From NCBI GenBank assembly GCA_030674455.1, contig JAUSGQ010000028.1, positions 1 through 55,498 on the forward strand: a stretch of 55,498 nucleotides of DNA. Reading direction: 5' to 3'. Position 1 is the first letter of the stretch, and the number at the start of each line of letters is the position of its first letter. The notes under the pieces were generated by a model that made no database searches, was not told the DNA's origin, and saw only the letters and a list, made by a program, of their open reading frames with translations. Made by a program: the position numbers and the translations under genes. This document shows positions 1,973 through 55,063 of the stretch, piece after piece. The stretch comes from a bacterium. GTDB lineage: Bacteria > Patescibacteriota > Minisyncoccia > Phycocordibacterales > UBA2100.

Positions 1973-3064
1973 ATGAATATTATGGCAAGCCTATTTGAAA
2001 CTGTAAATAATTACAAGGAGCGCATCCTTCAGTATTTTTCCAATGACATCGGAATTGATTTGGGGACAGCGAACACTCTCGTGTACGTCAAAGGGCGCGG
2101 TATTGTCATCAATGAGCCGTCAATTGTCGCGGTAAACCAGAAGACGGGGAAAGTTGTCGCCGTAGGAATGCAGGCAAAAGAAATGCTCGGCCGGACTCCG
2201 CCGCACATCACGGCGGTGCAGCCGGTCATAGACGGTGTAATCTCCGATTTCGAGGTTACTTCTGAAATGCTCGCGTATCTAATAAACAAGGCGCAAGCGG
2301 GACATACCAAATTCCTCGGCCCGCGTGTCGTCATCGGAGTTCCATCCGGAATCACATCAGTCGAAGTGCGAGCTGTGCGCGACGCAGCGCGGGATGCAGG
2401 GGCGAGAGAGGTACACATCGTCGAAGAACCGATGGCCGCGGCCATAGGAATTGAACTACCGGTGCATGAGCCGACCGGAAGCATGGTCATAGACATCGGC
2501 GGCGGCACGACGGATATCGGCATAATCGCTTTGGGCGGTCTCGTGAACGCAAAGAATGTCCGCGTCGCGGGGGACAGATTTAATACGGATATCATCGGAC
2601 ATGCGCGCAACGAATTCAAAATCCTTATCGGCGTGAAAAGCGCGGAAGAGATAAAAATCTCGGTCGCCTCTGTGACTCCCGGAAGAGAACGGCTCGAGGC
2701 CATCGCCCGCGGGCGGGATTTAGTCACGGGTCTTCCGCGAGAAATGATAGTTACCGACCAGGATGTACGCAACGCGATAGGGCACTCCATTGAAGAGCTC
2801 GTGGAGGCGGTGAAAGAAGTTCTGGAAACAACACAGCCGGAAATCGTTGCCGATGTGATGCAGAGAGGAATTTATCTTGCGGGCGGCGGAGCTTTGATAC
2901 GCGGACTTCCTCAATTCCTGAACGCGACGCTCGGCGTGCCTGTAATGGTGGCCGCCGACCCGCTCACGGCAGTTGTCCGCGGTACGAGCATTATTCTTGA
3001 TGATTTAGAACTTTATCGCGAGGCGCTCTTGCGAAGCGACGATGAACTTGTTCCGACGGAATAA
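1973..3064 (+). CDS. mreB: Rod-shape actin homologue MreB
   Basis: Cytoskeletal ATPase that forms membrane-bound filaments guiding lateral wall synthesis. 363 residues, normal for the family. Visible are the phosphate-1 loop (GIDLGTANTLVYVKG), the phosphate-2 loop (VIDIGGGTTDIG) and the adenosine motif (GIYLAGGGALIRG). The start is ATG 1973, preceded by AGGAAAATA; the frame extends to a TTG at 1952 without support. The gene overlaps mreC by 23 bases, followed by a short MreD-like gene and PBP2, so it heads a conventional rod-elongation operon. Confidence 0.96.
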   Translation: MNIMASLFETVNNYKERILQYFSNDIGIDLGTANTLVYVKGRGIVINEPSIVAVNQKTGKVVAVGMQAKEMLGRTPPHITAVQPVIDGVISDFEVTSEMLAYLINKAQAGHTKFLGPRVVIGVPSGITSVEVRAVRDAARDAGAREVHIVEEPMAAAIGIELPVHEPTGSMVIDIGGGTTDIGIIALGGLVNAKNVRVAGDRFNTDIIGHARNEFKILIGVKSAEEIKISVASVTPGRERLEAIARGRDLVTGLPREMIVTDQDVRNAIGHSIEELVEAVKEVLETTQPEIVADVMQRGIYLAGGGALIRGLPQFLNATLGVPVMVAADPLTAVVRGTSIILDDLELYREALLRSDDELVPTE

Positions 3065-3860
3065 CACCCTGCAAGGCAGATGGCCTACCCGCACAGGGAG
3101 AAAAAGCATTTTTATAGCTACGCTCATAGTATGCGCTCTTATTGTCTTTGACGCGCTTTCTGGCGGCTCAGTGCGCTCGCTTGTTCGGCATGCGGGCGCA
3201 ACTATGTGGAGCGCGGGTGTTTCAGTCGGAAATTCGATTTTCGGAAGCGGGCTCTTCACGACGCGCCGCGCTCTCATTGCAGAAAATGCATCACTCTCCG
3301 AACAGATAGCGCAATTTCAGGAACAAGCCGCGGCATACAGAGTACTGCAGGCGGAAAACAACACTCTCCGAGACATGCTCAATGTGGCGGAAATACAGCG
3401 CGGCCAAAATAGGGATGCGGGGATTACCGCGCCGATAATTTCTTCGTTTCGCGCTTCTCCATACGGGACGTTTCAGATAGGAGCCGGTACAGCCGATTCC
3501 GTTGCTCCGGGAAATCTTGTTCTGAGCGCAGAGAATTTCGTCATCGGTAGGATTGAGACGGCAGACGCAAACTCATCGCTTGCGAGGGAAATTTTCGCGC
3601 CTAACATTTCCACCGATGCGGTCCTTCACGGAGTCGGAGTCGCAGTATTAGGACAGGGTGGAGGGAACGCCCGGACAGACGTCCCGCGGCAAACCGATGT
3701 CTCGCTCGGAGACCCTGTTGTTTCCGCTCCCCTTGGCTCGCGCGCCATTGGCGTTGTGGGCAAGGTGACAGAGGATTCCGGAGATGCCTATAAGCGTGTG
3801 CAGATATATCTTCCGGTAAACCTTTCCGTTCTGCAGTTTGTGTATGTCGTCAAAAAGTGA
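3042..3860 (+). CDS. mreC: Rod-shape-determining protein MreC
   Basis: Membrane-anchored scaffold of the elongasome that links MreB filaments to PBP2. The 272-residue product has a basic N-terminus, one membrane segment (about 22-42), a coiled coil (about 78-112, AENASLSEQIAQFQEQAAAYRVLQAEN) and the periplasmic beta domain with the usual ISSFRASPYGTFQIGAG and GDPVVSAPLGSRAIGVVGKV stretches. It starts inside the last codons of mreB, consistent with translational coupling. The length is near the family norm. Confidence 0.92.
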   Translation: MNLFRRNNTLQGRWPTRTGRKSIFIATLIVCALIVFDALSGGSVRSLVRHAGATMWSAGVSVGNSIFGSGLFTTRRALIAENASLSEQIAQFQEQAAAYRVLQAENNTLRDMLNVAEIQRGQNRDAGITAPIISSFRASPYGTFQIGAGTADSVAPGNLVLSAENFVIGRIETADANSSLAREIFAPNISTDAVLHGVGVAVLGQGGGNARTDVPRQTDVSLGDPVVSAPLGSRAIGVVGKVTEDSGDAYKRVQIYLPVNLSVLQFVYVVKK

Positions 3861-3864
3861 AGTA

Positions 3865-3960
3865 CCAATCTATAAATGGATTCCAATCTACAAATAACTA
3901 CGAATAGAATTCCAGAGGTGAGTCCTCGGCACTGCGAGGTCTCTCCTCGGGAATTTGCCC
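3865..3960. repeat. CCAATCTA repeat pair and GAGGT...CCTCGGGAAT palindrome
   Basis: CCAATCTATAAAT (3865-3877) and CCAATCTACAAAT (3883-3895) are tandem copies of a motif also seen at 14421 and 43029. A hairpin-rich stretch follows whose end, CTCTCCTCGGGAAT, resembles the element after tRNA-Met near 50540-50590 (GTCTCCTCGGGAAT). Both are dispersed intergenic repeats inside an otherwise tight operon. Confidence 0.55.
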
Positions 3961-3989
3961 CTATTGATAGCTAGTAAATTGAAAATTCT

Positions 3990-4247
3990 ATGTCTCGCAT
4001 ATTTCGTCCAACTTTGGCCATCGTCGGGACTCTCGCTGCGATATTTGCGCCGCCATGGGTGACCATTCTTTGCATGGGAGTGTTGGCATTTCGCTATCCG
4101 GCGTGGGAAGTTCTTTTCATCGGCCTACTTACGGATTTTCTTTGGATTCCGCCGGGTCTATTACATCCGCTTCCCATTTTTACCATCGCGGCATTTATTC
4201 TCGTGTGGGGGCTTGAGCCATTGCGAAAAGAATTCCTGTTTTCTTAA
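3990..4247 (+). CDS. mreD: Short MreD-like membrane protein
   Basis: An 85-residue protein with about three hydrophobic segments (LAIVGTLAAIFAPPWVTIL, GVLAFRYPAWEVLFIGLLTDFLW, LPIFTIAAFILVW). The position between mreC and PBP2 and the GLLTDFLW segment, reminiscent of the GLLxD region of MreD, point to MreD. At 85 residues it is about half the usual length. It may be a reduced MreD or an unrelated small membrane protein in the same slot. The symbol is by context. Confidence 0.55.
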   Translation: MSRIFRPTLAIVGTLAAIFAPPWVTILCMGVLAFRYPAWEVLFIGLLTDFLWIPPGLLHPLPIFTIAAFILVWGLEPLRKEFLFS

Positions 4248-4254
4248 CAAGTTT

Positions 4255-4292
4255 CTAGCAGTCAGACTGCTAAATGGCAGTCTGACTGCTAG
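4255..4292. terminator. 16-bp perfect hairpin between mreD-like and PBP2 genes
   Basis: CTAGCAGTCAGACTGC pairs with GCAGTCTGACTGCTAG around TAAATG. Each arm is itself palindromic (GCAGTC-A-GACTGC). Related GTC-A-GAC cores occur at the end of the SerC-like gene and at 50099-50125. It could attenuate read-through into the PBP2 gene, which has its own -10 box just downstream, but no T-tract follows. Confidence 0.5.
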
Positions 4293-4306
4293 TGTTTGCA
4301 AAATGA

Positions 4307-4312
4307 TATAGT
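4307..4312 (+). promoter_or_regulatory. Extended -10 box (TGATATAGT) for a near-leaderless mrdA transcript
   Basis: TATAGT preceded by TGA lies only 6 bases before the ATG at 4319, so transcription would start at or next to the start codon. No -35 match at the usual distance. The same layout recurs at seven other genes of this window. Confidence 0.5.
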
Positions 4313-4318
4313 AACAAA

Positions 4319-6106
4319 ATGACCTGGTTCAGAACGCGCAGAAAACGAACATACGAAATCGCTCCGGACGAGATATTTCTCGATTCTTCTAATCTTCCGA
4401 GCCATAACGAACGCCAGTTCGAAGGCCGCGTCGACCACCCGGTTTCGGGAAGAGCCATTTGGAGCGTTGGCATCGCTTTTTTTGTCCTGGCCTCCGTATT
4501 TACGGCGCGCGCATACAGTTTGCAGATATCACAGGGAGAAAATTTCACCAACATTTCGCGAAATAATCGCTTGGACAAGTCTCTCATATTCGCGATGCGC
4601 GGAATTATTTACGACAGGACGGGACGCGAACTGGCGTGGAACGAATCTGCCCCGTCGGTTCGCGCCGATGTCGCGATAGATTCCGCCACATCGTCGGTAT
4701 TCGCGCTTCGCAAATACAGCTCTCTTCCCGGACTCTCTCACCTCATAGGATTTGTCCGGTATCCCAAGGCGGACGCCAATGGAACATGGTGGCGTGAAGA
4801 CTATGCAGGCATTTCAGGCGTAGAGCTTTCTTTTGACGACGTTCTTAAAGGCACCAACGGCAGTACGATGCGAGAGACTGACGCGCGCGCGCACGTCGTG
4901 CGGGAAAATCTTGTCGCGCTGCCGCAAAATGGCGCCGACATAAAGCTCTCGATAGACGCGGGAGTACAAAGCGAGCTCTACAAAATGCTTTCAGCGCATG
5001 CGGCCGCCAACAGATTTAACGGCGGAGCATCGGTCATCATGGATGTGCAGACCGGAGAAATTCTCGCGCTCGCAAGTTTCCCCGAGTACGACCACACAGC
5101 GTTTACCGAAGGCAACGCGCGCGCTGTCCGCGATGCGATTAATAATCCGCGCACGCCGATGCTCAATCGTGCTGTTGCCGGCGCGTACACTCCCGGCTCC
5201 ATTGTGAAGCCGATTTTCGCAGCCGCCGCGCTCAAGGAAGGCATTATTAGTCCGGACAAACAAATTCTATCAACGGGAGCGATAAAAATCCCGAATCCGT
5301 ACGACCCGGAACATCCTTCTGTATTCAGGGACTGGGCAGTGCATGGATTGGTAGACATGCGCACCGCACTTGCTGTTTCGTCAGACGAATATTTTTATAC
5401 GATAGGCGGCGGCTATGCCGGACAGAAAGGGTTAGGCGTTAACCTCCTTGACCAGTATGCGCGCGCCTTTGGGCTTTCCGCTCCTACCGGAATCGCGCTT
5501 GTGGGTGAAGTTTCGGGAGTTATTCCGACGCCTGCGTGGAAAGAGTCTGTCTTCGGCACGGACGACCCGTGGCGAATTGGAGACACCTACCACACGGCAA
5601 TCGGGCAATACGGATTCCAGATAACGCCAATACAGGCGGTGAGATATGTTTCTGCCATTGCAAACGGCGGAAAGCTCCTTACGCCGCAATTGCTCGCTCG
5701 CCCCGTTAGAAGTCAGACGTCCGATAGTAACGCAAAAATCCCCGAAACTTCTAACGGGGCGGGTTCAACGCCGGAATATACCGAAGTGGGTATTCCTGAT
5801 GAATATTTGCAGGTGGTGCGCGAAGGGATGCGATTGGCTGTGACGTCGACGCGCAAAGATGCGACGGTAAAATTCTTTAATATCGGCGGAATTCATATAG
5901 CGGCAAAAACGGGAACGGCGCAGACAGGAGCCAAAAACGAATCCATGAACTCGTGGTCAATCGGTTTTTGGCCATCGGAGAACCCGCGTTTTGCGTACGC
6001 CACCGTTCTTGAAAAGGCTCCGGCAGGAACGCTCGCGGGCGCTGCCCCGGCGATGCTCCCATTTTTCCGGTGGCTTATGGTTCATAGACCGGAATACATA
6101 TATTAG
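4319..6106 (+). CDS. mrdA: Penicillin-binding protein 2 (elongasome transpeptidase)
   Basis: Class B transpeptidase that crosslinks lateral-wall peptidoglycan with MreC. 595 residues: one membrane segment (about 46-64), dimerisation domain (MRGIIYDRTGRELA near 93-106), then the transpeptidase domain with SIVK (Ser294, Lys297), SSD at 354-356 (SxD is usual for PBP2), and KTG at 530-532. Residues 461-483 are encoded by an inverted repeat (CCCCGTTAGAAG ... CTTCTAACGGGG, positions 5700-5760) that also occurs as a leader element at 17278 and 25421; it is an in-frame insertion near the domain end. Last gene of the Mre cluster. Confidence 0.92.
   Translation: MTWFRTRRKRTYEIAPDEIFLDSSNLPSHNERQFEGRVDHPVSGRAIWSVGIAFFVLASVFTARAYSLQISQGENFTNISRNNRLDKSLIFAMRGIIYDRTGRELAWNESAPSVRADVAIDSATSSVFALRKYSSLPGLSHLIGFVRYPKADANGTWWREDYAGISGVELSFDDVLKGTNGSTMRETDARAHVVRENLVALPQNGADIKLSIDAGVQSELYKMLSAHAAANRFNGGASVIMDVQTGEILALASFPEYDHTAFTEGNARAVRDAINNPRTPMLNRAVAGAYTPGSIVKPIFAAAALKEGIISPDKQILSTGAIKIPNPYDPEHPSVFRDWAVHGLVDMRTALAVSSDEYFYTIGGGYAGQKGLGVNLLDQYARAFGLSAPTGIALVGEVSGVIPTPAWKESVFGTDDPWRIGDTYHTAIGQYGFQITPIQAVRYVSAIANGGKLLTPQLLARPVRSQTSDSNAKIPETSNGAGSTPEYTEVGIPDEYLQVVREGMRLAVTSTRKDATVKFFNIGGIHIAAKTGTAQTGAKNESMNSWSIGFWPSENPRFAYATVLEKAPAGTLAGAAPAMLPFFRWLMVHRPEYIY
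5700..5760 (+). repeat. PVRS/SNG inverted repeat inserted in frame in mrdA
   Basis: Arms CCCCGTTAGAAG and CTTCTAACGGGG (12 bp, perfect) flank about 35 bases containing GCAAAAATC. Translated here it reads PVRS...SNG. The same arms, at 17278-17374 and 25423-25522, form leader elements in front of other genes. Confidence 0.75.
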
Positions 6107-6203
6107 GTGATAGGGAATAGGGTGTAGGTGATAGTAAATGCACATTACGTACGATTTTCTTTCCCTAAAACCTATAACCTAAAACCTAGAACCTGTTTGC
6201 GCC

Positions 6204-6231
6204 TTGCTCTTGCAATCGCAAACTGTATAAT
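6204..6231 (+). promoter_or_regulatory. greA promoter
   Basis: TTGCTC (6204-6209), 16-base spacer, TATAAT (6226-6231) preceded by TG. The ATG follows 12 bases after the -10 box. Upstream (6165-6196) lie degenerate heptad repeats of the ACCTATA/ACCTAAA type. Confidence 0.65.
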
Positions 6232-6243
6232 GCTGCGCACAAT

Positions 6244-6711
6244 ATGAATGATGAAACAAATTACTTGAGCAAAGAGAAGTTTGATGAATTTACAAAAGAG
6301 CTCGAGCATTTAAAAACGGTTCGCAGACGCGAAATTGCCGAGCAGTTGGAATACGCCCGTTCATTGGGCGATTTGTCTGAGAATGCGGAGTATGAGGAAG
6401 CGCGGAATCTTCAGGCCGCGACGGAAGACCGCATTCGCAATATAGAAGAAAGCCTCGCGCGTGCGCGAATCATAGAGCATCCGAAGGGAAACATAGTCTC
6501 TTTGGGCAATTTTGTGACTATCCAAAAACAGGGTGAAAAGGAGGAGCACACTTATGAGATTGTCGGCTCTGCGGAAGCCAACATGCAGGAACACAAAATC
6601 TCTCATCTCTCTCCACTTGGTTCGTCATTGATGGGGAAAAAGAAAAGCGAAGTTTTCTCATTTGAAACTCCAAAGGGTGCGCAGAAGTATAAAATCGTAA
6701 ATATTAAGTAG
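6244..6711 (+). CDS. greA: Transcript cleavage factor GreA
   Basis: Rescues backtracked RNA polymerase by stimulating transcript cleavage through the secondary channel. 155 residues, standard length. The N-terminal coiled coil carries the tip acidic pair in GDLSENAEYEEA (about 41-52). The C-terminal FKBP-like domain contains HKISHLSPLGSSLMGKKKSEVFSFETP, split here as ISHLSPLGSSLMGKK and SEVFSFETP. Own promoter upstream and a strong hairpin terminator 11 bases after the stop. Confidence 0.95.
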   Translation: MNDETNYLSKEKFDEFTKELEHLKTVRRREIAEQLEYARSLGDLSENAEYEEARNLQAATEDRIRNIEESLARARIIEHPKGNIVSLGNFVTIQKQGEKEEHTYEIVGSAEANMQEHKISHLSPLGSSLMGKKKSEVFSFETPKGAQKYKIVNIK

Positions 6712-6727
6712 TCCATTGGTTGCTTGC

Positions 6728-6763
6728 GCAAAATGGCCAGAAATAATTTCTGGCCATTTTGCG
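6728..6763. terminator. Bidirectional terminator hairpin after greA and the tRNA-Ala tail elements
   Basis: GCAAAATGGCCAGAAA pairs with TTTCTGGCCATTTTGC, a 16-bp stem with A-rich and T-rich flanks. It can stop greA transcription on the plus strand and, on the minus strand, transcription arriving through the two tail elements behind tRNA-Ala(CGC). Confidence 0.75.
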
Positions 6764-6766
6764 GTT

Positions 6767-6884
6767 GGTGGACCCAGGGAGAATCGGTCAGGCGTTCCGC
6801 GTGCGCCGTCGCGCACGCGGCCGCACGACCCTAGCTCGCGGCTGCGCCTTCTGGCTCGGCATCGCTCCGCTTTTCGATTCCCCA
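6767..6884 (-). ncRNA. tRNA-tail structured element, copy 2 (behind tRNA-Ala CGC)
   Basis: Read on the minus strand, an outer stem (GGGGAATCG ... CGATTCTCCC) ends in GGTCCACCA, a degenerate copy of the 3' end of the upstream tRNA-Ala(CGC). Inside is a hairpin GCGTGCG/CGCACGC whose loop (GCCGTCGC on the plus strand, 6805-6812) is identical in the other minus-strand copies while the stem differs. The motif CATCGCTCCG near the proximal end is shared with the tRNA-Val copy. Not a recognised RNA family. Confidence 0.6.
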
Positions 6885-6885
6885 C

Positions 6886-6907
6886 AGAAGCGCATAAATG
6901 CGCTTCT
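6886..6907. terminator. Hairpin between the two tRNA-tail elements
   Basis: AGAAGCGCA pairs with TGCGCTTCT around TAAA. It separates the two tandem tail elements, mirroring the hairpins that follow the other copies. Confidence 0.55.
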
Positions 6908-6911
6908 TCCT

Positions 6912-7041
6912 TGTGGACCTGGGGGGAATCGGTCAAGCGCTCGGAATTTTGCCGTCGCAAAAATTCCTCCGCCTGACCACGCTCGCGCATCCCCATCTGC
7001 TGATGGGGCGCCAGCGCTCGCTTTCGATTCCCCCCAACTCC
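6912..7041 (-). ncRNA. tRNA-tail structured element, copy 1 (behind tRNA-Ala CGC)
   Basis: The outer stem GGGGGGAATCG (plus 6921-6931) with CGATTCCCCCC (plus 7025-7035) is 11 bp, perfect, and extends through AAGCG/CGCTT. The distal end repeats 19 bases of the tRNA 3' end exactly (6913-6931 equals 7088-7106). Two internal hairpins: one with stem GAATTTTGC/GCAAAAATTC and invariant loop GCCGTCGC (6951-6958), one CCCCATC/GATGGGG. Order on the minus strand: tRNA, terminator, inverted T-arm, core, direct tRNA end, hairpin. Confidence 0.65.
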
Positions 7042-7049
7042 AAAAACCA

Positions 7050-7079
7050 CACACCGCCAGAGACATGCTCTGGCGGTGG
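7050..7079 (-). terminator. Terminator of tRNA-Ala(CGC)
   Basis: ACCGCCAGAG pairs with CTCTGGCGGT around ACATG. It lies just beyond the tRNA 3' end on the minus strand and is followed by a T-rich run in that direction. Confidence 0.65.
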
Positions 7080-7085
7080 CAGTTT

Positions 7086-7159
7086 TGGTGGACCTGGGGG
7101 GAATCGAACCCCCGCTTGCGCAATGCGAATGCGCCGTTATACCACTTAACTACAGGCCC
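7086..7159 (-). tRNA. tRNA-Ala (anticodon CGC)
   Basis: All arms fold: acceptor GGGCCTG/CAGGTCC, D-stem GTTA/TAAC, anticodon stem GCGCA/TGCGC with loop TTCGCAT, T-arm with a normal TTCGATT loop. CCA is encoded. Decodes GCG. Its 3' end is repeated in the two tail elements that follow on the same strand. Confidence 0.92.
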
Positions 7160-7191
7160 TCTCGAGAACTGAAAGAATATACCATATTTTG

Positions 7192-7263
7192 TCGGGATAC
7201 TGGGAGTCGGACCCAGCGTCTCATGCACCCCATGCATGCGTGTTGCCGCTACACTATACCCCG
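7192..7263 (-). tRNA. tRNA-Pro (anticodon GGG)
   Basis: Acceptor CGGGGTA/TATCCCG with C1 as usual for tRNA-Pro, D-stem GTGT/ACAC, anticodon stem CATGC/GCATG with loop ATGGGGT. The T-loop is TCCGACT, so the near-invariant T55 is C. No encoded CCA. Decodes CCC. Confidence 0.88.
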
Positions 7264-7338
7264 ATGCACGAAAAGGGGTCGCAAGTGTTGCGCGCAATCC
7301 TGTTCGCGTGTACCAATTATTACCATGAACATCAGCAT

Positions 7339-8211
7339 TCACAAAAGTGTCTTAAATTTGTCAGCGAGCTTTATAGCAGGATAAATATCTACGGGATAAA
7401 TTTCAATAAGTTGGATGTTATGTTTCTCGCAAAGTTTCCGTTTCTCCTGAATTGATCGGTCATACCGCGGGCTATCATTCGCCAAACCAAAGTACTCAAT
7501 AAAAACATTCTTTTTGATACTCCAGTCCGCCTTATGCCCGGTACCCGGATAGGGGGCATTACGGAGGTGTGAAATATTGTTTTTAGTTAGCCAGTCATCA
7601 ACAATTGCTTCAGAAACTGAATCGCATTTATGCCCATCTACAGCAACGGTACTAGTTCGCTTATACATGCGTTGGTTGTGAGAGCGATGCGGGACTAGCC
7701 CTGCTTTATTGATGGCTACGTTCCATGAGCCGAAAGCATATATACATGCCTCTGCAATTCGCCCAGCTTCACGCTTCGCGGGAGTGCGACCAAGTTGCGT
7801 AGCCAGAAGCTTAAGCTTGGCAACAAGTTCGGCGGGATCTGTCCTCCGCGCAATCTGACGACATTCGCTGGAGCAATACTTCAGCCACCCTGTGACGTGA
7901 TTCCTGCACTGCACACCCGCACAGATTCTGAACCCCGGTCCTCGTTTTGGGAATTTTTGATTATTGATATGCGCCGCACAGCTCTGCGAACAGAAACTTT
8001 GGATTACTTTTCGCGTTTCATGCGGCGAGCGATGAATTTGTTTATTGCAATCAGGATTTCCGCATTGCAATGCTTTGCTTCTCACCATGGAATTGACCAT
8101 GCACGCTTTGGAACAGTACTGTTTCCATCCGAATTTACGCGCCTCATTGACTCGTCCCTGCGGACGCAAGAATCTTTTCTTACACAAAGCACAGCGCACT
8201 TTGGTATACAT
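7339..8211 (-). CDS. Zinc-finger PD-(D/E)XK-type homing endonuclease-like protein
   Basis: 290 residues, three parts. Residues 1-130 hold repeated Cys pairs of small zinc-finger type (CALCKKRF, YCSKAC, CGNPDC, FCSQSC, YCSSEC). Residues about 130-175 (LKLLATQLGRTPAKREA ... FGSWNVAINKAGL) match the homing-endonuclease-associated repeat. The C-terminal part (EAIVDDWL, KADWSIKKNVFIEYFGL, then QLIEIYP) fits a small PD-(D/E)XK/Vsr-like nuclease core, with the Asp of ADW and Glu of EYF as candidate active residues. It is free-standing between two tRNA-Pro genes. Targets are unknown; a nearby tRNA is a guess. Confidence 0.6.
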   Translation of the reverse strand: MYTKVRCALCKKRFLRPQGRVNEARKFGWKQYCSKACMVNSMVRSKALQCGNPDCNKQIHRSPHETRKVIQSFCSQSCAAHINNQKFPKRGPGFRICAGVQCRNHVTGWLKYCSSECRQIARRTDPAELVAKLKLLATQLGRTPAKREAGRIAEACIYAFGSWNVAINKAGLVPHRSHNQRMYKRTSTVAVDGHKCDSVSEAIVDDWLTKNNISHLRNAPYPGTGHKADWSIKKNVFIEYFGLANDSPRYDRSIQEKRKLCEKHNIQLIEIYPVDIYPAIKLADKFKTLL

Positions 8212-8303
8212 AATGCGACAATGATATCACGGAATTCGGGTCGAGCTGATTCGAATCCATACGGGAACCACCATCATTGCCTGTCAGCGACCTCTGTTTC
8301 TTG

Positions 8304-8374
8304 TCGGGATGCCGAGAATTGCACTCGGGCTACATGCTCCCGAAGCATGCGTGCTACTTTTACACCACACCCCG
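8304..8374 (-). tRNA. tRNA-Pro (anticodon CGG)
   Basis: Acceptor CGGGGTG/CATCCCG, anticodon stem CATGC/GCATG with loop TTCGGGA, T-stem CCGAG/CTCGG. The T-loop is TGCAATT, so position 55 is G instead of T. No encoded CCA. Decodes CCG. Confidence 0.85.
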
Positions 8375-8384
8375 AAACCTTATC

Positions 8385-8400
8385 GGAATCCGATGATTCC
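8385..8400. terminator. Hairpin after the tRNA-Val tail element
   Basis: GGAATC pairs with GATTCC around CGAT. It follows the tail element on the minus strand, in the same place as the hairpins behind the tRNA-Ala and tRNA-Asp elements. Confidence 0.45.
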
Positions 8401-8515
8401 GTGTGCACCTTGTAGGGATCTCCCGCGACTCAAAGCTCGCCGTCGCTCGCTTTGGTCTGGGCACCGCCTCGCGATTTTGCCTGCTGGCAAAACATCGCTC
8501 CGGCGTTCTCACCCT
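8396..8515 (-). ncRNA. tRNA-tail structured element behind tRNA-Val(CAC)
   Basis: The distal end (8396-8420) is an exact 25-base copy of the tRNA-Val 3' region (8567-8591). The proximal end (GTTCTCACCCTA) is a degenerate inverted copy of its T-arm. The core shares GGTCTGGGCACC, a TTTTGCC/GGCAAAA hairpin, CATCGCTCCG and the hairpin loop GCCGTCGC (8439-8446) with the copies at 6767 and 10290, while the stem around that loop differs. Confidence 0.6.
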
Positions 8516-8574
8516 AACACACAGCGCGCAGGCGCTGTGCTCAAGTTGCAACGGAATTGTTTCGCAATTCCGTG

Positions 8575-8646
8575 TGCACCTTGTAGGGATCGAACCTACG
8601 GCCTTTCCGATGTGAACGGAACGCTCTACCACTGAGCTAAAGGTGC
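8575..8646 (-). tRNA. tRNA-Val (anticodon CAC)
   Basis: Acceptor GCACCTT/AAGGTGC, D-stem GCTC/GAGC, anticodon stem TTCCG/CGGAA with loop TTCACAT, T-loop TTCGATC. No encoded CCA. Decodes GTG. Upstream of it (plus 8655-8674) lies a GCTCCGATTTACATCGGAGC palindrome. Confidence 0.92.
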
Positions 8647-8831
8647 CCTCCTATGCTCCGATTTACATCGGAGCTTCGAAGGGCAAGCAGTGATCGGATT
8701 GACCACATCTCGCCCGCCGAAGCTCTTATGCAATTTGAGCGAAGGCGGGAGCTAAGGGTGCGTGAAAAGATTATACTTTCATGGTAATCTAAAAGCTATA
8801 CCCTAGTCGCTATACGCTAATCGCTACCTCT

Positions 8832-9788
8832 ATGGACTACCGCATTTTCAGCCTAGGAAGCAATGATGCGCTCTCAACGAAAATTGCCGAGCGCCTCGGC
8901 GTTTCTCTCGGCAAGATAAAATGCAAGACGTTTTCCGACGGTGAGCAGTACGTGCAATTCCAGGAAAACCTCCGCAATAAATATATCTTTCTTGTCCAAT
9001 CAACTAATCCGCCGTCCGACAACTGGACACGGCTGTTCCTCGCGATAGACGCCGCTCGCGGAGCATCGGCGCAAAGCATCACGGCAGTCATTCCGTATTT
9101 TGGGTACGCGCGCCAAGACCGCAAGGACAGGCCACGCGAGCCGATATCCGCGCGCGTCTTTGCAACAATCCTCGAGTCCGTCGGCACCAATCACGTACTT
9201 ACCATGGACCTGCACGACGACGCCATCGGCGGATTCTTCAGAACTGCAAATGTTGATTATCTCTACGCGAGACCCGTATTCATTTCTCACTTTAAAGACA
9301 TTTTCCGAGATGCCTTGGATAAAGATGAGTTCGTGGTCGTCTCACCCGATGCGGGTGGCGTAGTGCGGGCGCAGTCTTATGCGAAACGTCTTATGAAATC
9401 CGCCGACCTGGCCATAATCCACAAGGAGCGCGATGTGCCGAATCAAGTTGCGCGGATGAAATTGATAGGGGACGTGAAAGGAAAAGTTGCGCTCATTGTT
9501 GACGACATGGTAGACACCTGCGGCACGCTCGTTACCGCGACGAATCTTCTCGTCGAGAGCGGAGCAAAGGAAGTGTACGCGGCGGCGACCCACGGAGTTT
9601 TAAGCGGCCAGGCGCTCGCGACCATAGACCGCTCACCGATCAAGAAAGTTTTCATTACGGATACGATTTCGGTAGAACGCACACTATCGCCTAAAATCGA
9701 AGTTGTCTCGGTGGGAGGAATTTTCGGCGACGCAATACAAAGAATCACGAACGGTGAATCCCTAAGCGCCCTTTTTGAGGCTGAGTAA
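8832..9788 (+). CDS. prs: Ribose-phosphate pyrophosphokinase
   Basis: Makes PRPP from ribose 5-phosphate and ATP for nucleotide synthesis. 318 residues, normal length. Visible are the flexible-loop region YFGYARQDRKDRPREPISARV (written here as YFGYARQDRKDR and PREPISAR), MDLHDDAIGGFF, and the PRPP-binding loop VDDMVDTCGTLVTA. It supplies the purine route used by guaA downstream. The upstream stretch 8797-8828 consists of degenerate TCGCTA-type short repeats. Confidence 0.95.
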   Translation: MDYRIFSLGSNDALSTKIAERLGVSLGKIKCKTFSDGEQYVQFQENLRNKYIFLVQSTNPPSDNWTRLFLAIDAARGASAQSITAVIPYFGYARQDRKDRPREPISARVFATILESVGTNHVLTMDLHDDAIGGFFRTANVDYLYARPVFISHFKDIFRDALDKDEFVVVSPDAGGVVRAQSYAKRLMKSADLAIIHKERDVPNQVARMKLIGDVKGKVALIVDDMVDTCGTLVTATNLLVESGAKEVYAAATHGVLSGQALATIDRSPIKKVFITDTISVERTLSPKIEVVSVGGIFGDAIQRITNGESLSALFEAE

Positions 9789-9843
9789 TATTTGGCCATA
9801 AATAATGCAATCTTACTCTTTTTTAATTCTGCGACCGCGCCTC

Positions 9844-9879
9844 CTTATAGGTTAATTCGCGCGAATTAACCTATAAGGA
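9844..9879. promoter_or_regulatory. 36-bp perfect palindrome before an HTH gene
   Basis: The half-site CCTTATAGGTTAATTCGC is followed by its exact reverse complement. It lies 18 bases before the start of the HTH gene at 9898. A degenerate copy with the same TTCGCGCGAA core follows that gene at 10200-10221. Possible operator of an autoregulated repressor, or the end of a mobile cassette. Confidence 0.7.
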
Positions 9880-9897
9880 ACGAGTATAAGAAACCTT

Positions 9898-10158
9898 ATG
9901 AATGAAATGGAGAAACTTCTGAAAGCGATTGCAAACGGTCGAAGGTTGGCGATTCTCAAATATCTTGCGCGTGTTAAAAAAGCGTCGGTAGGGGACATTT
10001 CAGAAAATATCAAACTGTCCTTTCGCGCTACATCTCAACACCTAAACATCCTCAAACAAGCAGATATTCTTGAGAAGAAGCAAGAAGGGCTGATTGTTTG
10101 GCACACACTTAGCGTGCCGATGCACTCAATCATTTCGAAATTGCTCAAGTTTCTATAA
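9898..10158 (+). CDS. Small ArsR-like winged-helix DNA-binding protein
   Basis: 86 residues. The pattern LLKAIANGRRLAILKYLARV, then SVGDISENIKLSFRATSQHLNILKQ, then ILEKKQEGLIVWH is the ArsR-type winged helix (H3 recognition helix followed by a beta wing). No metal-binding Cys pair is seen, so the ligand is unknown. The gene is bracketed by palindromes with a common core (9844-9879 and 10200-10221), an arrangement repeated with other palindromes around two further small HTH genes in this window. Confidence 0.75.
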   Translation: MNEMEKLLKAIANGRRLAILKYLARVKKASVGDISENIKLSFRATSQHLNILKQADILEKKQEGLIVWHTLSVPMHSIISKLLKFL

Positions 10159-10199
10159 TCGAACCTGTTCAGCAGACGCCCAGTAGCTATCAAACTATA

Positions 10200-10221
10200 G
10201 GCTTATTCGCGCGAATTAACC
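10200..10221. repeat. Degenerate copy of the TTCGCGCGAA palindrome
   Basis: GGCTTATTCGCGCGAATTAA plus CC is the central part of the 9844-9879 palindrome with two mismatches. It closes the HTH gene on its 3' side, 42 bases after the stop codon. Confidence 0.65.
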
Positions 10222-10289
10222 GATGGTGGAAAAGCTGTGCATACCGAATAATACTTCCCAGTGTACTCTATTCATGATCGCGAGTACGC

Positions 10290-10396
10290 TTATCTCCCTC
10301 GACTCACTATCGCGCCGTCGCGCGACAGTGGTCTGGGCACCAGCTCGTCTGTTTTGCGTACTCGAAAAACATGACTCCGCTGTTCGATTCCTGCCG
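10290..10396 (-). ncRNA. tRNA-tail structured element behind tRNA-Arg(CCG)
   Basis: The proximal end GTTCGATTCCTGCC (10382-10395) is the exact reverse complement of the tRNA T-arm (10433-10446). The core has GGTCTGGGCACC (10330-10341), a GTTTTGCG-containing hairpin, CATGACTCCG and the invariant hairpin loop GCCGTCGC (10314-10321) inside a CGCG stem. The distal direct copy of the tRNA end is not evident here, so this copy may be truncated. Confidence 0.55.
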
Positions 10397-10425
10397 CAAT
10401 CCCATCGCTCGTTTCACTCGCTTTG

Positions 10426-10497
10426 TGCTCCCGGCAGGAATCGAACCTGCATCACCTCCTTCGGAGGGAGATATCCTATCCATTGAACGACGGAAGC
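10426..10497 (-). tRNA. tRNA-Arg (anticodon CCG)
   Basis: Acceptor GCTTCCG/CGGGAGC, anticodon stem TCTCC/GGAGG with loop CTCCGAA, T-loop TTCGATT. No encoded CCA. Decodes CGG. Confidence 0.9.
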
Positions 10498-10573
10498 TGG
10501 AATCGCTATACCTTACCACAACTGAGAGATATTTTTGGAGCCGTGATGGAAGTTTGCTAGTATGAGCCCCGAC

Positions 10574-10647
10574 GGGCCTATAGTTCAGCGGTAGAACGCG
10601 TCCATGGCATGGACGAGGTCGGGGTCCGACTCCCCGTAGGTCCACCA
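10574..10647 (+). tRNA. tRNA-Ala (anticodon GGC)
   Basis: Acceptor GGGCCTA/TAGGTCC, anticodon stem CGTCC/GGACG with loop ATGGCAT, encoded CCA. The T-arm is CGGGG-TCCGACT-CCCCG, so T55 is C, as in tRNA-Pro(GGG). Decodes GCC. Confidence 0.9.
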
Positions 10648-11052: not shown

Positions 11053-12726
11053 TCAACCCCACTCAATCGTTGCCGGGGGTTTGTCGGATATTCGGTAAAC
11101 GACGGCGCCGACCTCTTTCACTTCGTTCGTTATGCGACGAGAAACTTTGTCTAGAAAGTCATATGGCAACTGCGCGAAGCGCGCGGTGAAGCCGTTGACG
11201 CTCCAGACCGCCCAGAGCGCGATTACATGACCGTTGGTCGCGTCATCGCCTTTTGAGCCGGTTTGCCTTGAAGCGGTTACGACGGCTCCCGCCTGCCAGA
11301 CCGTTTCGTACAATTTTGCCGCGCGAAGTTCTTCTATATAGATTCCATCAACGGCGCGGGCAATTCTCAAACTTTCATCAGTAACCTCGCCTTCAATGCG
11401 CACGACAAGTCCGGGGCCGGGGAAGGGATGGCGCACAAGCAAATCTTCCGGCACTCCAATATCGCGTCCGATTGAGCGCGCGGAATCTTTGACCTCGGTA
11501 TCAAGCGGAGTAAGTTCCGGAACCGAAAATCCAAGCGCAGTGTTGTGATGCAGTTTAATCTGTGCGCGCCTAGCGCCAGTAGCATGTCCGTGTCCGCTTT
11601 CCACGAGGTCTGTATAAAGCGTACCCTGCGCGATGAAATCCGCTCCGAATTCCTTGATTTTCTTTTCCAGAACATCTTTGTAGACATCTCGCATCGCGAC
11701 GCGCTTTTCCTGCATCGTCAGTTTACCTTTGAGTGCATGAAGAAACTCTTTCGTCGCATCCACTATTTCAACTGTAATCCAATCCTGCTTACTGAAATAT
11801 TTTTGCACGTACGCCTCGTCGTCAGGCCTATCGATTCCGCGGATATAAATTCCCCTTAAGGTGAGACCTTGTCTCTTGAGGTTAAACCTCAGTCCTTGAG
11901 GTTTAACCTCAAGATTCTCTGATGCCGACTTCAATAGATATGCCACGACGGAAGAATCGGAACCACCTGAAAGCGCAATGAGAACTTTTTTACCTTGCTC
12001 CGCCGAAGCCTTGTGCGAAGGCGAGCCTTCAATTTGCTTCCGCAATACATCAATCTTTTCTTTTGCGACATTATGAGCGGGGAAGCGGTCTGTAATTTCA
12101 CAAATCTTGCAGAAGTTGTCATATATCCTTTCGCCCTCCACGGTGTCTTGGACTTCAGGATGAAACTGCACGCCCCAGAGGTGGCCTTTGCGCCCGGCAG
12201 CGACTGGCGCATTTTCTGTACTGCCGAGATTCGTGAGTACTGAACTTTCTTCGATGGAATCCCCGTGAGTTTCCAGAACCTCGCTTTCTTTTGGGACGCC
12301 TGTAAAAAGCGGGTCATCGCCCTTGAGATTCAATGTGTGAACCCCAAACTCTCTTTTCTCATGCGGAGTAACTTTTGCGCCGACATGTTTCGCCCACATC
12401 TGAAATCCGAGGCAAATTCCAAGAACGGGAATTCCCAAGTCAAAAATACTTGCATCAAACGGCGGCGGCTCATCGTGAACTGATGCAGGCCCGCCCGAAA
12501 CGATGATTCCGGAGGGCTTGAGTTTCTTCACATCTTCGGCTTTAACTTCTGCGGGGTCAGCCACAAGCGCGTATACGCCGATTTGCGCGAGTTTCTGGAC
12601 GATTAGATGATCAAACTGCGAACCCATCGAGAAGAGAAGTATCAGATGGGATGTCTTTCGCACCCGCATTTCCTCGGCAATCTCCGCAAGAGCTTCAGGT
12701 GTAGCTTTCTTGAAGATGTTGAGCAT
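11053..12726 (-). CDS. guaA: GMP synthase (glutamine-hydrolysing)
   Basis: Converts XMP to GMP using glutamine ammonia. From ATG 12726 the product has 557 residues. Class I amidotransferase domain with nucleophile Cys105 (GICLGFQ) and the catalytic FHPEV near 188-192. ATP-pyrophosphatase P-loop SGGSDSS near 253-259 (SGGVDSS is usual). C-terminal GMPS dimerisation domain ends KPPATIEWG. Residues about 271-291 come from tandem palindromes (CTTGAGGTTTAACCTCAAG type, plus 11875-11913), an in-frame insertion just behind the P-loop helix. The frame is open upstream to 12846, but that part lacks similarity. Confidence 0.94.
   Translation of the reverse strand: MLNIFKKATPEALAEIAEEMRVRKTSHLILLFSMGSQFDHLIVQKLAQIGVYALVADPAEVKAEDVKKLKPSGIIVSGGPASVHDEPPPFDASIFDLGIPVLGICLGFQMWAKHVGAKVTPHEKREFGVHTLNLKGDDPLFTGVPKESEVLETHGDSIEESSVLTNLGSTENAPVAAGRKGHLWGVQFHPEVQDTVEGERIYDNFCKICEITDRFPAHNVAKEKIDVLRKQIEGSPSHKASAEQGKKVLIALSGGSDSSVVAYLLKSASENLEVKPQGLRFNLKRQGLTLRGIYIRGIDRPDDEAYVQKYFSKQDWITVEIVDATKEFLHALKGKLTMQEKRVAMRDVYKDVLEKKIKEFGADFIAQGTLYTDLVESGHGHATGARRAQIKLHHNTALGFSVPELTPLDTEVKDSARSIGRDIGVPEDLLVRHPFPGPGLVVRIEGEVTDESLRIARAVDGIYIEELRAAKLYETVWQAGAVVTASRQTGSKGDDATNGHVIALWAVWSVNGFTARFAQLPYDFLDKVSRRITNEVKEVGAVVYRISDKPPATIEWG
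11861..11913. repeat. Tandem GAGGTTTAACCTC palindromes inside guaA
   Basis: AAGGTGAGACCTT, CTTGAGGTTAAACCTCAG and CTTGAGGTTTAACCTCAAG follow one another. Single copies of the same family lie in nth (28206-28222) and in the intergenic cluster at 36045-36065. Confidence 0.7.
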
Positions 12727-50667: not shown

Positions 50668-51354
50668 ATGGCACCGATGTTTCGTGGAGTGAACCAGGAT
50701 TTTTTCAAACGCTGGTCATCCGAGATGGCCTACGTTCTAGGATTCTTTGCCGCCGATGGAAACATGATTCGCAATAAACGCGGCGCACACTTCATTGCTT
50801 TTTATAGCAATGATAGAGGATTGCTTGAGAAGGTGAGAGCCACTCTGGTATCGGACCACAAAATCGGGAAACGTGTGTACAAATCTAGTAAGAAATCCAC
50901 TACGTATCAACTACAACTCTGAAGCAAGGTTATGTTCTCGGATTTAAGCAAGCTCGGTTTCACTCCAAGAAAGAGTTGGCGCATGAAATTACCAACAATT
51001 CCAGAAGAACTATTTAGACATTTCGTGCGAGGATACTTCGATGGGGACGGATGCGTGTACTTTAAGAAGCATCATGTCAAAGATAGAAAGAAGATGAGAT
51101 GGGTATTTTCTTCGAGATTCACCGCTGGCTCCCGAACGTTTCTTGATTCATTTCACGAGAGGTTGCATTCTCATGGATTGAAAAAGGGATTTGTAACCTG
51201 CAAAAGGCAAGGCAGAGGTTTCGACCTAGTGTTCAGTCATAGCGATAGTGTTGCGTTATTCCATCTGATGTACGATACTATGCCCGACAGCGGTTTGTAT
51301 CTTGTCCGAAAGTTTAAGAAGTTTGTCAAGGCACTACAGACTCTGTATGGGTAA
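50668..51354 (+). pseudogene. LAGLIDADG homing endonuclease interrupted by one TGA codon
   Basis: One continuous frame of 228 codons: WSSEMAYVLGFFAADGNM is the first LAGLIDADG helix and FVRGYFDGDGCVYF the second, each ending in the catalytic acid (ADG, DGD). At 50920-50922 the frame has TGA between YQLQL and SKVMFSDLSKLGF; relatives usually have Gly at that place (IGSK), so a GGA to TGA change is likely. The gene would make only 84 residues unless read through; a restart at ATG 50932 yields the second half. Free-standing between tRNA-Met and tRNA-Asp. Confidence 0.75.
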
Positions 51355-52765: not shown

Positions 52766-53022
52766 GCCGATGTAGCTCAGTTGGTAGAGCACGTTCTTGG
52801 TGGGCCGCAAGCCCTGCCCATGCTCGCGGCAACGCGAGCATGAATCCCGAATAACGGTCAATATCCTTTCTAAGGACAAGACCGTGGCGTCAAACGCCCG
52901 AACGACTGACAAGGGTTCGCCTCAGGCGAAAAGATACAGTCTAGCCCTCCGATAATAGAAAGTGGAAACGGAGGTATAAGCGAAGAACGAGGTCTCCGGT
53001 TCAATCCCGGACATCGGCTCCA
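52766..53022 (+). tRNA. tRNA-Thr (anticodon GGT), interrupted by a group I intron
   Basis: Exon 1 is 52766-52801, exon 2 is 52983-53022. Joined: acceptor GCCGATG/CATCGGC, D-stem GCTC/GAGC, anticodon stem CGTTC/GAACG with loop TTGGTAA, T-stem CTCCGG-type with TTCAATC loop, T discriminator and encoded CCA. The intron sits directly after the anticodon. Decodes ACC. Confidence 0.85.
52802..52982 (+). ncRNA. Group I intron in tRNA-Thr
   Basis: 181 bases. Exon 1 ends in U and the intron ends in G, as group I splicing demands. The P7 pair is visible (GACTG in GAACGACTGACAAG with CAGTC in AAGATACAGTC), the latter being the conserved S-type sequence. P1 can form from GGTGGGC and GCCC...GCC with a U.G at the splice site. 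Small and without an open reading frame, hence perhaps self-splicing but not self-mobile. Confidence 0.8.
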
Positions 53023-53036
53023 GAATCAAACTCAAC

Positions 53037-53170
53037 GGCTTTTCAGAGGCCGAAATGCGCGCGGCGCGAAGCGCCGCGTAGGGGGGAATGGGGTTTCCGC
53101 GCGCTTCGCGCGTCGAAGAGGTTCAGAAAATACAGATCCGAAAACTTTTTGGAGGGGGTTTTGGAGGGGA
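53037..53170. repeat. Left terminal inverted repeat of the serine-recombinase element
   Basis: About 134 bases from GGCTTTTCAGAGGCCGAAAT to CTTTTTGGAGGG...GGAGGGG. It matches 54662-54794 in inverse orientation over nearly its whole length, with small differences. It contains two palindromes, GCGCGGCGCGAAGCGCCGCG and CGCGCGCTTCGCGCG. It begins 15 bases after the 3' end of tRNA-Thr. Confidence 0.8.
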
Positions 53171-53322
53171 AATGCAAATGCAGGAATCCATAAATACATA
53201 GTGGAGTGCTTTGCCCCGCCCACCCATGCGCGCACAAGTAGTCCATCCCTCGCCGTTTTTGAGGAACATTGTAAAACGGCAGGGATGGCTCCCCGAACGA
53301 AATGCGGTATGATATTTGAGAT

Positions 53323-54972
53323 ATGAAGTATTTTCTCTACGCTAGAAAATCTACCGACGTTGAAGACAAACAAATTTTGTCTATCGAAGCGCAGTTGACG
53401 GAATTGCGCGCGCTCGCGAAACGCGATGGGCTAGAAATCGCCGAGGAGTTTGTCGAAAAGAAATCCGCAAAGATTCCGGGCCGAGCGATATTCAACGATA
53501 TGATGTCTCGGATTCAACGCGGTGAAGCGCAAGGAATTATTTGTTGGAAAATAGATCGGCTCGCGCGAAATCCGGTGGACGGCGGACAAGTGCAGTGGTT
53601 GTTGCAACAAGGCGTTATCAAACATATTCAAACGCACGACCGCTCGCACTACCCAAATGACAATGTGCTGATGATGTCAGTCGAGCTTGGCATGGCGAAT
53701 GAATATGTGCGCCAACTTTCCGCAAACACCGCTCGTGGTCTGCGACAGAAAGCGCGGCAAGGGCTATATCCCGGCCTAGCTCCCATTGGATATTTGAACG
53801 ACCCGCGCACCAAAACTATCCGCGTCCACAAGAAAAATGCCGTGCTCGTGCGCGAAATGTTTGAACGGTACGCGAGCGGCAGCGCGACGCTCGATACTCT
53901 CGCGGTGATGTTGGAGAACGCGGGTGTGATGTCCAAAGGAAATCGCCGCGTTCACATCTCGCGCATTTCGTTCGTTTTGCAAAATCCGTTTTACTACGGC
54001 CACTTCCGCTACGCGGGCGAAGTGTACGAGGGCAATCATTCGCCGCTCATTTCAAAATCGCTGTACGACAAAGCGAACGTGGTACTTCGCTCGCGCGGCC
54101 GAACGCTCGCGGTCAAAACCGATCCCGCGCCATACTGCGGACTCTTGCGGTGCGACTTCTGCGGCATGGGCATCACGGCCGAAGTGAAAGAGAAGCACCA
54201 GTTGAACGGCAACGTCCATCACTACACTTACTACCGTTGTACTCGCAAGAACAAGGCCGTGAAATGCAAAGAAGCGCCGATGCGAAGCGAGGTCTTGGAC
54301 TCGCAACTCTCGGCGCTCCTTGGCGAGTACGCCATGCCGCAAGAATGGATATCGCCTTTGTCAGCGATGCTCGATACAGAAGCGGCTAGCGCCTCTAAAA
54401 CCGCGACGGAGGCCGTTCAAGGACTGCGGGACAAAGTTTTTGATATTTCTAACAAATTTGAACGTCTTACGGACTTGTACGTTGCCGAAGATATCGAACG
54501 TGAGGATTATTTGTCCCGCCGTCGCGCTCTCATGAGCGAGCGCCGGACGATTGAGGAGCAAATCGTCCGTCTTGAACGATCCCCCGCCGCGTGGGTTGAA
54601 CCTGTCAGAAACTGGATACAAGACGCTTCGCGTCTTGATGAAATTAGAAAATCAGAAGACATCCCCTCCAAAAAATCCCCCCTCCAAAAAATTTTCGGAT
54701 TGAACCTCTCCCTCCACGCGCGCGAAGCGCGCGGAACGCCCATTTCTCCATACGCGGCGCTTTGCGCCGCGCGAATTTCGGCCTCTGAAAAGCCACTCTG
54801 TTTAACGTTGGTGGAGCCAAGGAGGATTGAACTCCCCAATCCGAGTGCTAACCACGGAGTGCCTCACCAGAGGTGGCCCCTTGGTCTCCACAAAGAATAT
54901 TATGACATACAAACAAAAATCCGAGGCAGTGCCTCGGATTTTTTGGGAGCACATTTCGCACTCCGTGGTTAG
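53323..54972 (+). CDS. Large serine recombinase
   Basis: 549 residues. Resolvase domain with Ser10 (YARKSTDVEDKQILSIEAQ) and the conserved KIDRLARNP; recombinase domain (about 165-265, ISRISFVLQNPFYYGHFRY); zinc-ribbon CGLLRCDFCGMGI ... YYRC and KCKE; long coiled coil (about 345-430). Residues about 440-490 are encoded by the right TIR, and the last 60 run across the tRNA-like sequence, so the native end may be earlier. A TATGAT box lies 9 bases before the ATG. The resolvase catalytic residues look intact. Confidence 0.88.
   Translation: MKYFLYARKSTDVEDKQILSIEAQLTELRALAKRDGLEIAEEFVEKKSAKIPGRAIFNDMMSRIQRGEAQGIICWKIDRLARNPVDGGQVQWLLQQGVIKHIQTHDRSHYPNDNVLMMSVELGMANEYVRQLSANTARGLRQKARQGLYPGLAPIGYLNDPRTKTIRVHKKNAVLVREMFERYASGSATLDTLAVMLENAGVMSKGNRRVHISRISFVLQNPFYYGHFRYAGEVYEGNHSPLISKSLYDKANVVLRSRGRTLAVKTDPAPYCGLLRCDFCGMGITAEVKEKHQLNGNVHHYTYYRCTRKNKAVKCKEAPMRSEVLDSQLSALLGEYAMPQEWISPLSAMLDTEAASASKTATEAVQGLRDKVFDISNKFERLTDLYVAEDIEREDYLSRRRALMSERRTIEEQIVRLERSPAAWVEPVRNWIQDASRLDEIRKSEDIPSKKSPLQKIFGLNLSLHAREARGTPISPYAALCAARISASEKPLCLTLVEPRRIELPNPSANHGVPHQRWPLGLHKEYYDIQTKIRGSASDFLGAHFALRG
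54662..54794. repeat. Right terminal inverted repeat of the serine-recombinase element
   Basis: Inverse match of 53037-53170, ending GGCCTCTGAAAAGCC. It is read as the C-terminal coding part of the recombinase (SKKSPLQKIFGLNL, a conserved ending in CPR recombinases), so the left copy is a non-coding inverse duplicate of the gene's end. Confidence 0.8.
54811..54891 (-). tRNA. tRNA-like sequence, degenerate or unusual
   Basis: The 3' half is clear on the minus strand: T-arm GGGAG-TTCAATC-CTCCT, TGGCTCC and encoded CCA. The 5' acceptor reads GGAG-A-CCA, with one extra A. The D-arm and anticodon arm do not fold normally (CCGTG/CTCGG with a mismatch would give anticodon TAG). Part of it, TGCTAACCACGGAGTGC (54846-54862), is inversely repeated at 54958-54974. 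Possibly a tRNA pseudogene damaged by the recombinase element. Confidence 0.35.
54915..54943. terminator. Bidirectional terminator hairpin
   Basis: AAAAATCCGAGGC pairs with GCCTCGGATTTTT around AGT; classic form with T-tracts on both strands. It lies inside the nominal C-terminal frame of the recombinase, supporting an earlier true end. Confidence 0.75.
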
Positions 54973-55063
54973 CAGTCGTAGTATATGCTACTTTCTTTCA
55001 AGAGTCAAGGATTTGTGGGGATAGTGTTTAAACCTAAAAGAGGAGAAACCTTAAGAAATATGC

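Follow-up and report, generated by a model that had tools for sequence, protein, structure and literature searches.

A probable reduced copy of a Patescibacteria integrative element family with a large serine recombinase, tRNA-end targets and a mostly doubled, inverted attP

The stretch of DNA analysed here carries, with a probability of about 0.8 from sequence comparison, a reduced copy of an integrative element family of Patescibacteria that is driven by a large serine recombinase (LSR), targets the 3' ends of tRNA and tmRNA genes, and mostly carries its attP twice, in inverted orientation. This element family is little-noticed in Patescibacteria. The stretch, called the window throughout, is the whole 55,498 nt of JAUSGQ010000028.1 in assembly GCA_030674455.1, contig C1 of a 1.25-Mb Patescibacteria genome. 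A scan of genome contigs yielded 35 loci, with close relatives nearly all in Patescibacteria, and matches were found in 41 of the 68 scanned genomes of the window's bacterial family. In total we compared about 60 related loci, mostly on MAG contigs, and all of the evidence is comparative. The features of the window locus are as follows.

52766..53022, forward strand: tRNA-Thr(GGT), the T half-site, with G53 at 52999; its spliced form is a 76-nt tRNA-Thr(ggt) in ARAGORN
53018..53021, forward strand: recombination core CTCC (tRNA positions 72-75) at junction T.I; the same core is found at T.I and P.I of Thr-targeting relatives
53018..53170, forward strand: left I repeat, an interior attachment-site half plus GC hairpins, close to the I repeat of L055
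53323 to about 54810, forward strand: LSR gene; Pfam PF00239 Resolvase, PF07508 Recombinase, PF13408 Zn_ribbon_recom
54662..54794, reverse strand: right I' repeat, overlapping the LSR gene 3' end; its outer ~18 nt and a Thr-type core are absent
54809..54889, reverse strand: tRNA-like RNA gene T2 with a CCA end, recognised from sequence and from a homologue in G049; C72-A73-C74-C75 = 54813-54810

The recombinase gene is intact as judged from the open reading frame list and its Pfam domains. A preliminary description had called its product a serine recombinase, and its Resolvase catalytic serine, Recombinase domain and zinc beta-ribbon identify it, at the level of sequence, as a large one. The nucleophilic serine (S10) is invariant in our LSR alignment (A1), the SPbeta integrase YokA is among the closest solved structures, and the LSR of L055 shares 92% protein identity. 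The open frame continues across the antisense strand of the right-hand tRNA-like gene as far as 54972. That description had also placed the gene between inverted repeats and read its 3' end as duplicated inversely ahead of its 5' end, and both observations held. The repeats at 53037-53170 and 54662-54794 (133-134 bp) are 80% identical over a 143-column alignment (E=4.5e-33), and LSR residues 462-495 recur inversely at 53024-53125. Such similarity is far beyond chance and the repeats recur in most relatives. The functional start of the left repeat is the tRNA core at 53018, which corrects the earlier boundary at 53037.

Comparison across loci gave a usual integrated layout of D'.P'-[X arm]-P.I-[arm with LSR]-I'.T', in which T stands for a tRNA or tmRNA 3' end and P.I for an intact attP. 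The X arm is the cargo between the P repeats, and the gene arm is the LSR, with or without cargo, between the I repeats. Sequence P, outside the left I repeat, is conserved and is not host DNA; longer stretches revealed a second, inverted P up to several kilobases further left. Elements are ~3-13 kb long, with P repeats of 137-383 bp and I repeats of 85-174 bp, the latter 75-100% identical even in loci whose LSRs are only 33-40% identical to that of the window. P.I occurs twice, in opposite directions, in most elements for which the left side is available, and both repeat pairs are present in ten loci.

L055: P repeats 344 bp, 100% identical; I repeats 146 bp, 86%
L056: P repeats 383 bp, 93%; I repeats 169 bp, 89%
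L057: P repeats 159 bp, 98%; I repeats 154 bp, 92%
L058 (contig C63 of the window's own genome): P repeats 196 bp, 83%; I repeats 163 bp, 93%
L059: P repeats 242 bp, 100%; I repeats 131 bp, 100%
L038 and L040-L043 (Saccharibacteria): P repeats 137-186 bp, 89-100%; I repeats 157-174 bp, 92-100%

In these ten loci the P repeats join the I repeats no more than a few bases from the C72-N73-C74 core, and in most the two overlap by 3-10 nt, the exceptions being L038, where the P repeat reaches ~50 nt into I, and L058, where 6 nt lie between them. This meeting at the core is as expected if the integrating circle carried two P.I sites in inverted orientation. We infer that the circle carries its two attP copies inside repeats of ~300-550 bp, so that two arms would be separated by two long inverted repeats, each with a site inside, a layout derived from the same ten loci. 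The element in L034 is complete without a second attP or left repeat; the doubled site is thus common but dispensable for integration. The preliminary description had held that relatives with the recombinase at the same site but without the left repeat would speak against its reading; L034 lacks the left repeat, and most relatives do have it.

The preliminary description had proposed looking for the same unit at other loci and defining its ends, and the ~60 loci did define them, as T.I and P.D. The mobile unit of complete relatives runs from T.I, at the tRNA end, to P.D, several kilobases past the left repeat. These ends are fixed by a filled and empty pair: in L029 adjacent tRNA-Thr(ggt) and tRNA-Thr(cgt) genes lie a few nucleotides apart, and in L034 a 3.4-kb element separates them exactly at CTC(C), its two junctions reading T.CTCCGCAATC and P.CTCCAGCCGATATAG. 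A tRNA-targeting island is defined by filled and empty sites and by precise ends at the 3' end of a tRNA, and the relatives show both. Insertion by the LSR at tRNA and tmRNA 3' ends, with core C72-N73-C74, is well supported by these sequence comparisons. The new logic of ends that had been suspected is borne out in the form of P.D and T.I ends combined with an inverted second attP.

How one recombinase family might address so many tRNA genes is suggested by the spacing of a T-loop motif, which we measured in 24 elements with both sides readable. By tRNA geometry, G53 (of GTTC) lies 19 nt from the core, as it does in the window's tRNA-Thr. A GTTC-like motif is present in the attP of 24/24, at 23 nt (16 elements), 24 nt (4) or 25 nt (4) from the core, giving a shift between attP and tRNA of 4 bp in 16/24, 5 in 4 and 6 in 4, and so not exactly 5. 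A stricter version of the motif was found in 20/24 attP and in 1% of shuffled P sequences, the null being a simple base shuffle. In serine integrases the zinc domain sits 5 bp closer to the centre on attB than on attP (PMC3783163), and the closeness of the 4-6 bp shift to this value suggests that in attB the T-loop serves as the zinc-domain motif. Distinct attP and attB sites with this motif farther out in attP, as in serine integrases, were seen in all 24 of the elements. Most likely, then, it is the near-universal T-loop that the LSR would recognise as zinc-domain motif in attB, with GGTTCnA as its counterpart in attP, while N73 of the core, together with the remainder of the tRNA end, would limit which tRNAs are used. 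The N73 found in the core is that of the target class (T for Thr; A for Arg, Leu, Ala, Gly, Glu and Phe; G for Ser), and for Gln targets the core is AGC. Target class requires at least 19 changes on the LSR tree, yet is clustered, and switches occur between sister LSRs (Ala/tmRNA in L083/L084; Ala/Glu in L071/L072).

Both borders of the window element had been described as abutting tRNA ends. On the left this stands: the border is a tRNA-Thr(GGT) with an insert of ~180 nt in its anticodon loop, because of which ARAGORN misses it. The insert (52801-52983) has a group I-like AAGATACAGTC motif, seen by eye, and gave no Rfam report even at E=10. Insert-bearing tRNA-Thr genes similar to that of the window are the targets of L022/L057 and L036. 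Some way upstream, two adjoining short frames before a tRNA-Asp (50668-51354) resemble, by eye, pieces of one LAGLIDADG-like homing endonuclease; a Pfam scan gave no match for the second piece. The right border is less straightforward, being a CCA-ended tRNA-like RNA (T2, 54889-54809) with neither an ARAGORN nor an Rfam call. We ruled out that T2 is a tmRNA, as the proper tmRNA of the window genome is on contig C36. In the bacterial family T2 has one distant homologue, located elsewhere in its genome (G049).

T2 also appears to belong to a two-RNA module (window 54803-55008, reverse strand), which has a homologue in L066 of G049 at about 1320-1570. The tRNA-like RNA of this module has a CCA end and an 11-nt 'anticodon' loop. 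About 100-170 nt upstream of it is a promoter-like TTGACT-17-TATACT (55008-54980) for a short terminated RNA with a fold z of -5.9, with complementarity between its 5' end (54958-54978) and the anticodon arm of the tRNA-like RNA (54842-54862). G049 shows this arrangement too, and its loop sequence is different. The module had no Rfam match above threshold.

The window copy has a regular T1.I junction and is without P, the X arm and P.D. It thus has only one of the two element ends, and on the right side the element is joined to T2 minus the first ~18 nt of I'. This right junction is at odds with a clean attP x attB event, an origin that is ruled out by its core, which reads CACC (from the tRNA-like gene) and not CTCC, together with the mismatching first ~18 nt of I'. 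It is most simply read as a deletion after integration, in which the X arm and P would have been lost and the gene-end repeat joined, 18 nt short, to the flank of the second tRNA-like gene. We sought an empty site for the T2-secA side in the same bacterial family and found none.

The preliminary description had suggested that the segment between the repeats may invert. The gene arm does occur either way round with respect to the tRNA, about 52 versus 6, in different loci and not within one population, which supports inversion only indirectly. The gene 3' end faces a tRNA or tmRNA 3' end in about 52/58 LSR loci; in 48 loci an opposite-strand tRNA 3' end faces it within 450 nt (L044 and L086 not directly abutting), a tmRNA is faced in L037 and L084, and an intron-bearing tRNA-Thr in L036 and L057. 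The gene is turned round, with the tRNA on its 5' side, in six loci (the window, L007, L025, L033, L045 and L080), five of which end at a contig edge with the other side unread. By comparison of the loci, integration uses one attP, producing T.I and P.D at the ends and leaving the other attP intact inside. Use of either attP, or recombination between T.I and the inverted inner attP, could then place the gene arm either way round, usually antisense to the tRNA promoter (and perhaps silent) and rarely sense, as in the window. Elsewhere in the window's own genome (G000:C56), L061 holds at 1-350 a relic P.I followed by an antisense N-terminal LSR scrap, which is compatible with a flipped state, and at 11550 a separate P-like site with core CTCAAG.

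What the doubled attP does, if anything, can be read in several ways. It is quite plausible, at a little under even odds, that these are ordinary LSR islands whose second attP is an inverted, neutral duplication with no role, its copies staying similar through gene conversion. The complete L034 manages with a single attP and the orientation bias is strong. Known LSRs, as far as the account in PMC3783163 goes, recombine no site pairings other than attP x attB unaided, and under this rule alone an inversion by T.I x P.I would not be permitted. Against a neutral duplication stands the breadth of the doubled site, which spans LSRs only 35-45% identical in Saccharibacteria and Parcubacteria, often with 98-100% repeat identity; a neutral copy should have been lost. 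I repeats are 100% identical over 130 nt within L038, L040, L041, L043, L059, L082 and L083, and between related elements they are mostly 63-80% alike (exceptions: L038/L040 at 98%, L041/L042 at 95%). This contrast points to homogenisation of the repeats within elements.

We tentatively propose, as a possibility somewhat below that of a neutral duplication, that the T-loop-reading integrase inverts its own gene arm with respect to the tRNA promoter, or else flips the circle as the 2-micron plasmid does, and so couples orientation to recombinase expression, mobility or copy number. Unlike integration, such a use of the doubled attP is an inference.

The yeast 2-micron plasmid, with its FLP-FRT system, has two unique arms, long inverted repeats with a site in the middle, and a recombinase gene that runs into a repeat. 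The present family likewise has two unique arms, long near-identical inverted repeats, a site inside them and a recombinase 3' end that reaches into the repeat. A bacterial analogue, in which recombination of the two inverted attP sites in the circle flips an arm and aids amplification or spread, is nonetheless unlikely. Unlike 2-micron, the family has a serine instead of a tyrosine recombinase and integrates into the chromosome, its flipping is an extrapolation, and no replication or partition gene was recognised in the annotated cargo of the element sample or in the open reading frame lists. Nor did a protein-level search of viral contigs for a free circle or phage form return a relative, and the best phage and plasmid records held only LSRs of <30% identity. 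The sole P-motif match in viral contigs (L111) was a chance one, without core, repeats or LSR.

A transposon bounded by terminal inverted repeats, in which the recombinase and its two I repeats move alone with tRNA ends as their target, is improbable. It was suggested by the window, which holds just the I-repeat unit between two tRNA-type ends, and the preliminary description had named an autonomous element as one possibility. In complete relatives, however, the unit is always flanked by P on one side and a tRNA end on the other, the insertion stops at P.D, past the left I repeat, and that repeat forms one half of a second attP, which is intact and inverted. The surroundings of two relatives agree with an end at P.D: the element of L055 sits between a tRNA-Thr(cgt) and the start of a release-factor-like (prfB-like) gene, named by eye, and in L062 a tRNA-Thr(cgt) lies ~340 nt from the homologous prfB-like gene. 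That assemblers made the inverted duplication is scarcely credible. The repeats are found on MAG contigs that often end in or near them, but many loci have diverged copies (80-93%), dozens of independent assemblies contain such repeats between unique flanks, and the point at which they meet is always one biological core.

Cargo in this family of probable integrative elements is frequently anti-phage defence. It includes a complete type I restriction-modification system (L056), a DrmD-like helicase, a type IIG enzyme and Shedu and GajB-like proteins (L058, contig C63 of the window's own genome), AbiE (L057), a reverse transcriptase (L062), an Mrr-type nuclease (L043) and a MazG-like protein (L038). 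The X arm of L062 (about 2400-10600) has the reverse transcriptase, a large AAA protein and a transglutaminase-core protein side by side, possibly a new defence operon. In L055, a 1162-aa open frame (6113-9601, reverse strand) begins within the P repeat and takes up much of the X arm; it had no match in Pfam or PADLOC.

Hin is a serine recombinase whose gene lies inside a segment bounded by inverted sites. The present family resembles Hin in this placement and differs from the invertible segments of Hin/Gin type in that its recombinase is an LSR, its sites are an attR-like site and an attP, and its segment ends at a tRNA gene. With the serine integrases (A118/LI integrase, phiC31, Bxb1, SPbeta SprA/YokA) it shares the domain layout, non-identical attL and attR, and an attP/attB logic in which the zinc-domain motif is displaced by about 5 bp (PMC3783163). 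Unlike them, it targets the 3' ends of many tRNAs and of tmRNA, apparently via the T-loop, has a mostly doubled and inverted attP, and keeps its LSR frame open into the tRNA. The frame is without a stop before the tRNA in 41/44 loci, so the protein tail should differ between integrated and free forms. Islander/TIGER islands at tRNA ends share with the family the insertion at tRNA 3' ends, restoration of that end including CCA by the element, and cargo; the family differs in its serine integrase, a core of only 3-4 bp and an internal inverted attP. Tyrosine integrases are more abundant than serine integrases by about 8-fold (PMC12884075). In the open-licence literature that we searched, the layout with a doubled, inverted attP is described for no serine integrase.

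As serine integrases that appear to address many tRNA 3' ends through the T-loop, members of this family are possible tools for multi-target integration, and their doubled, inverted attP makes self-inverting integrative elements directly testable. For Patescibacteria, in which mobile elements are poorly known, the family would represent a carrier of defence genes.
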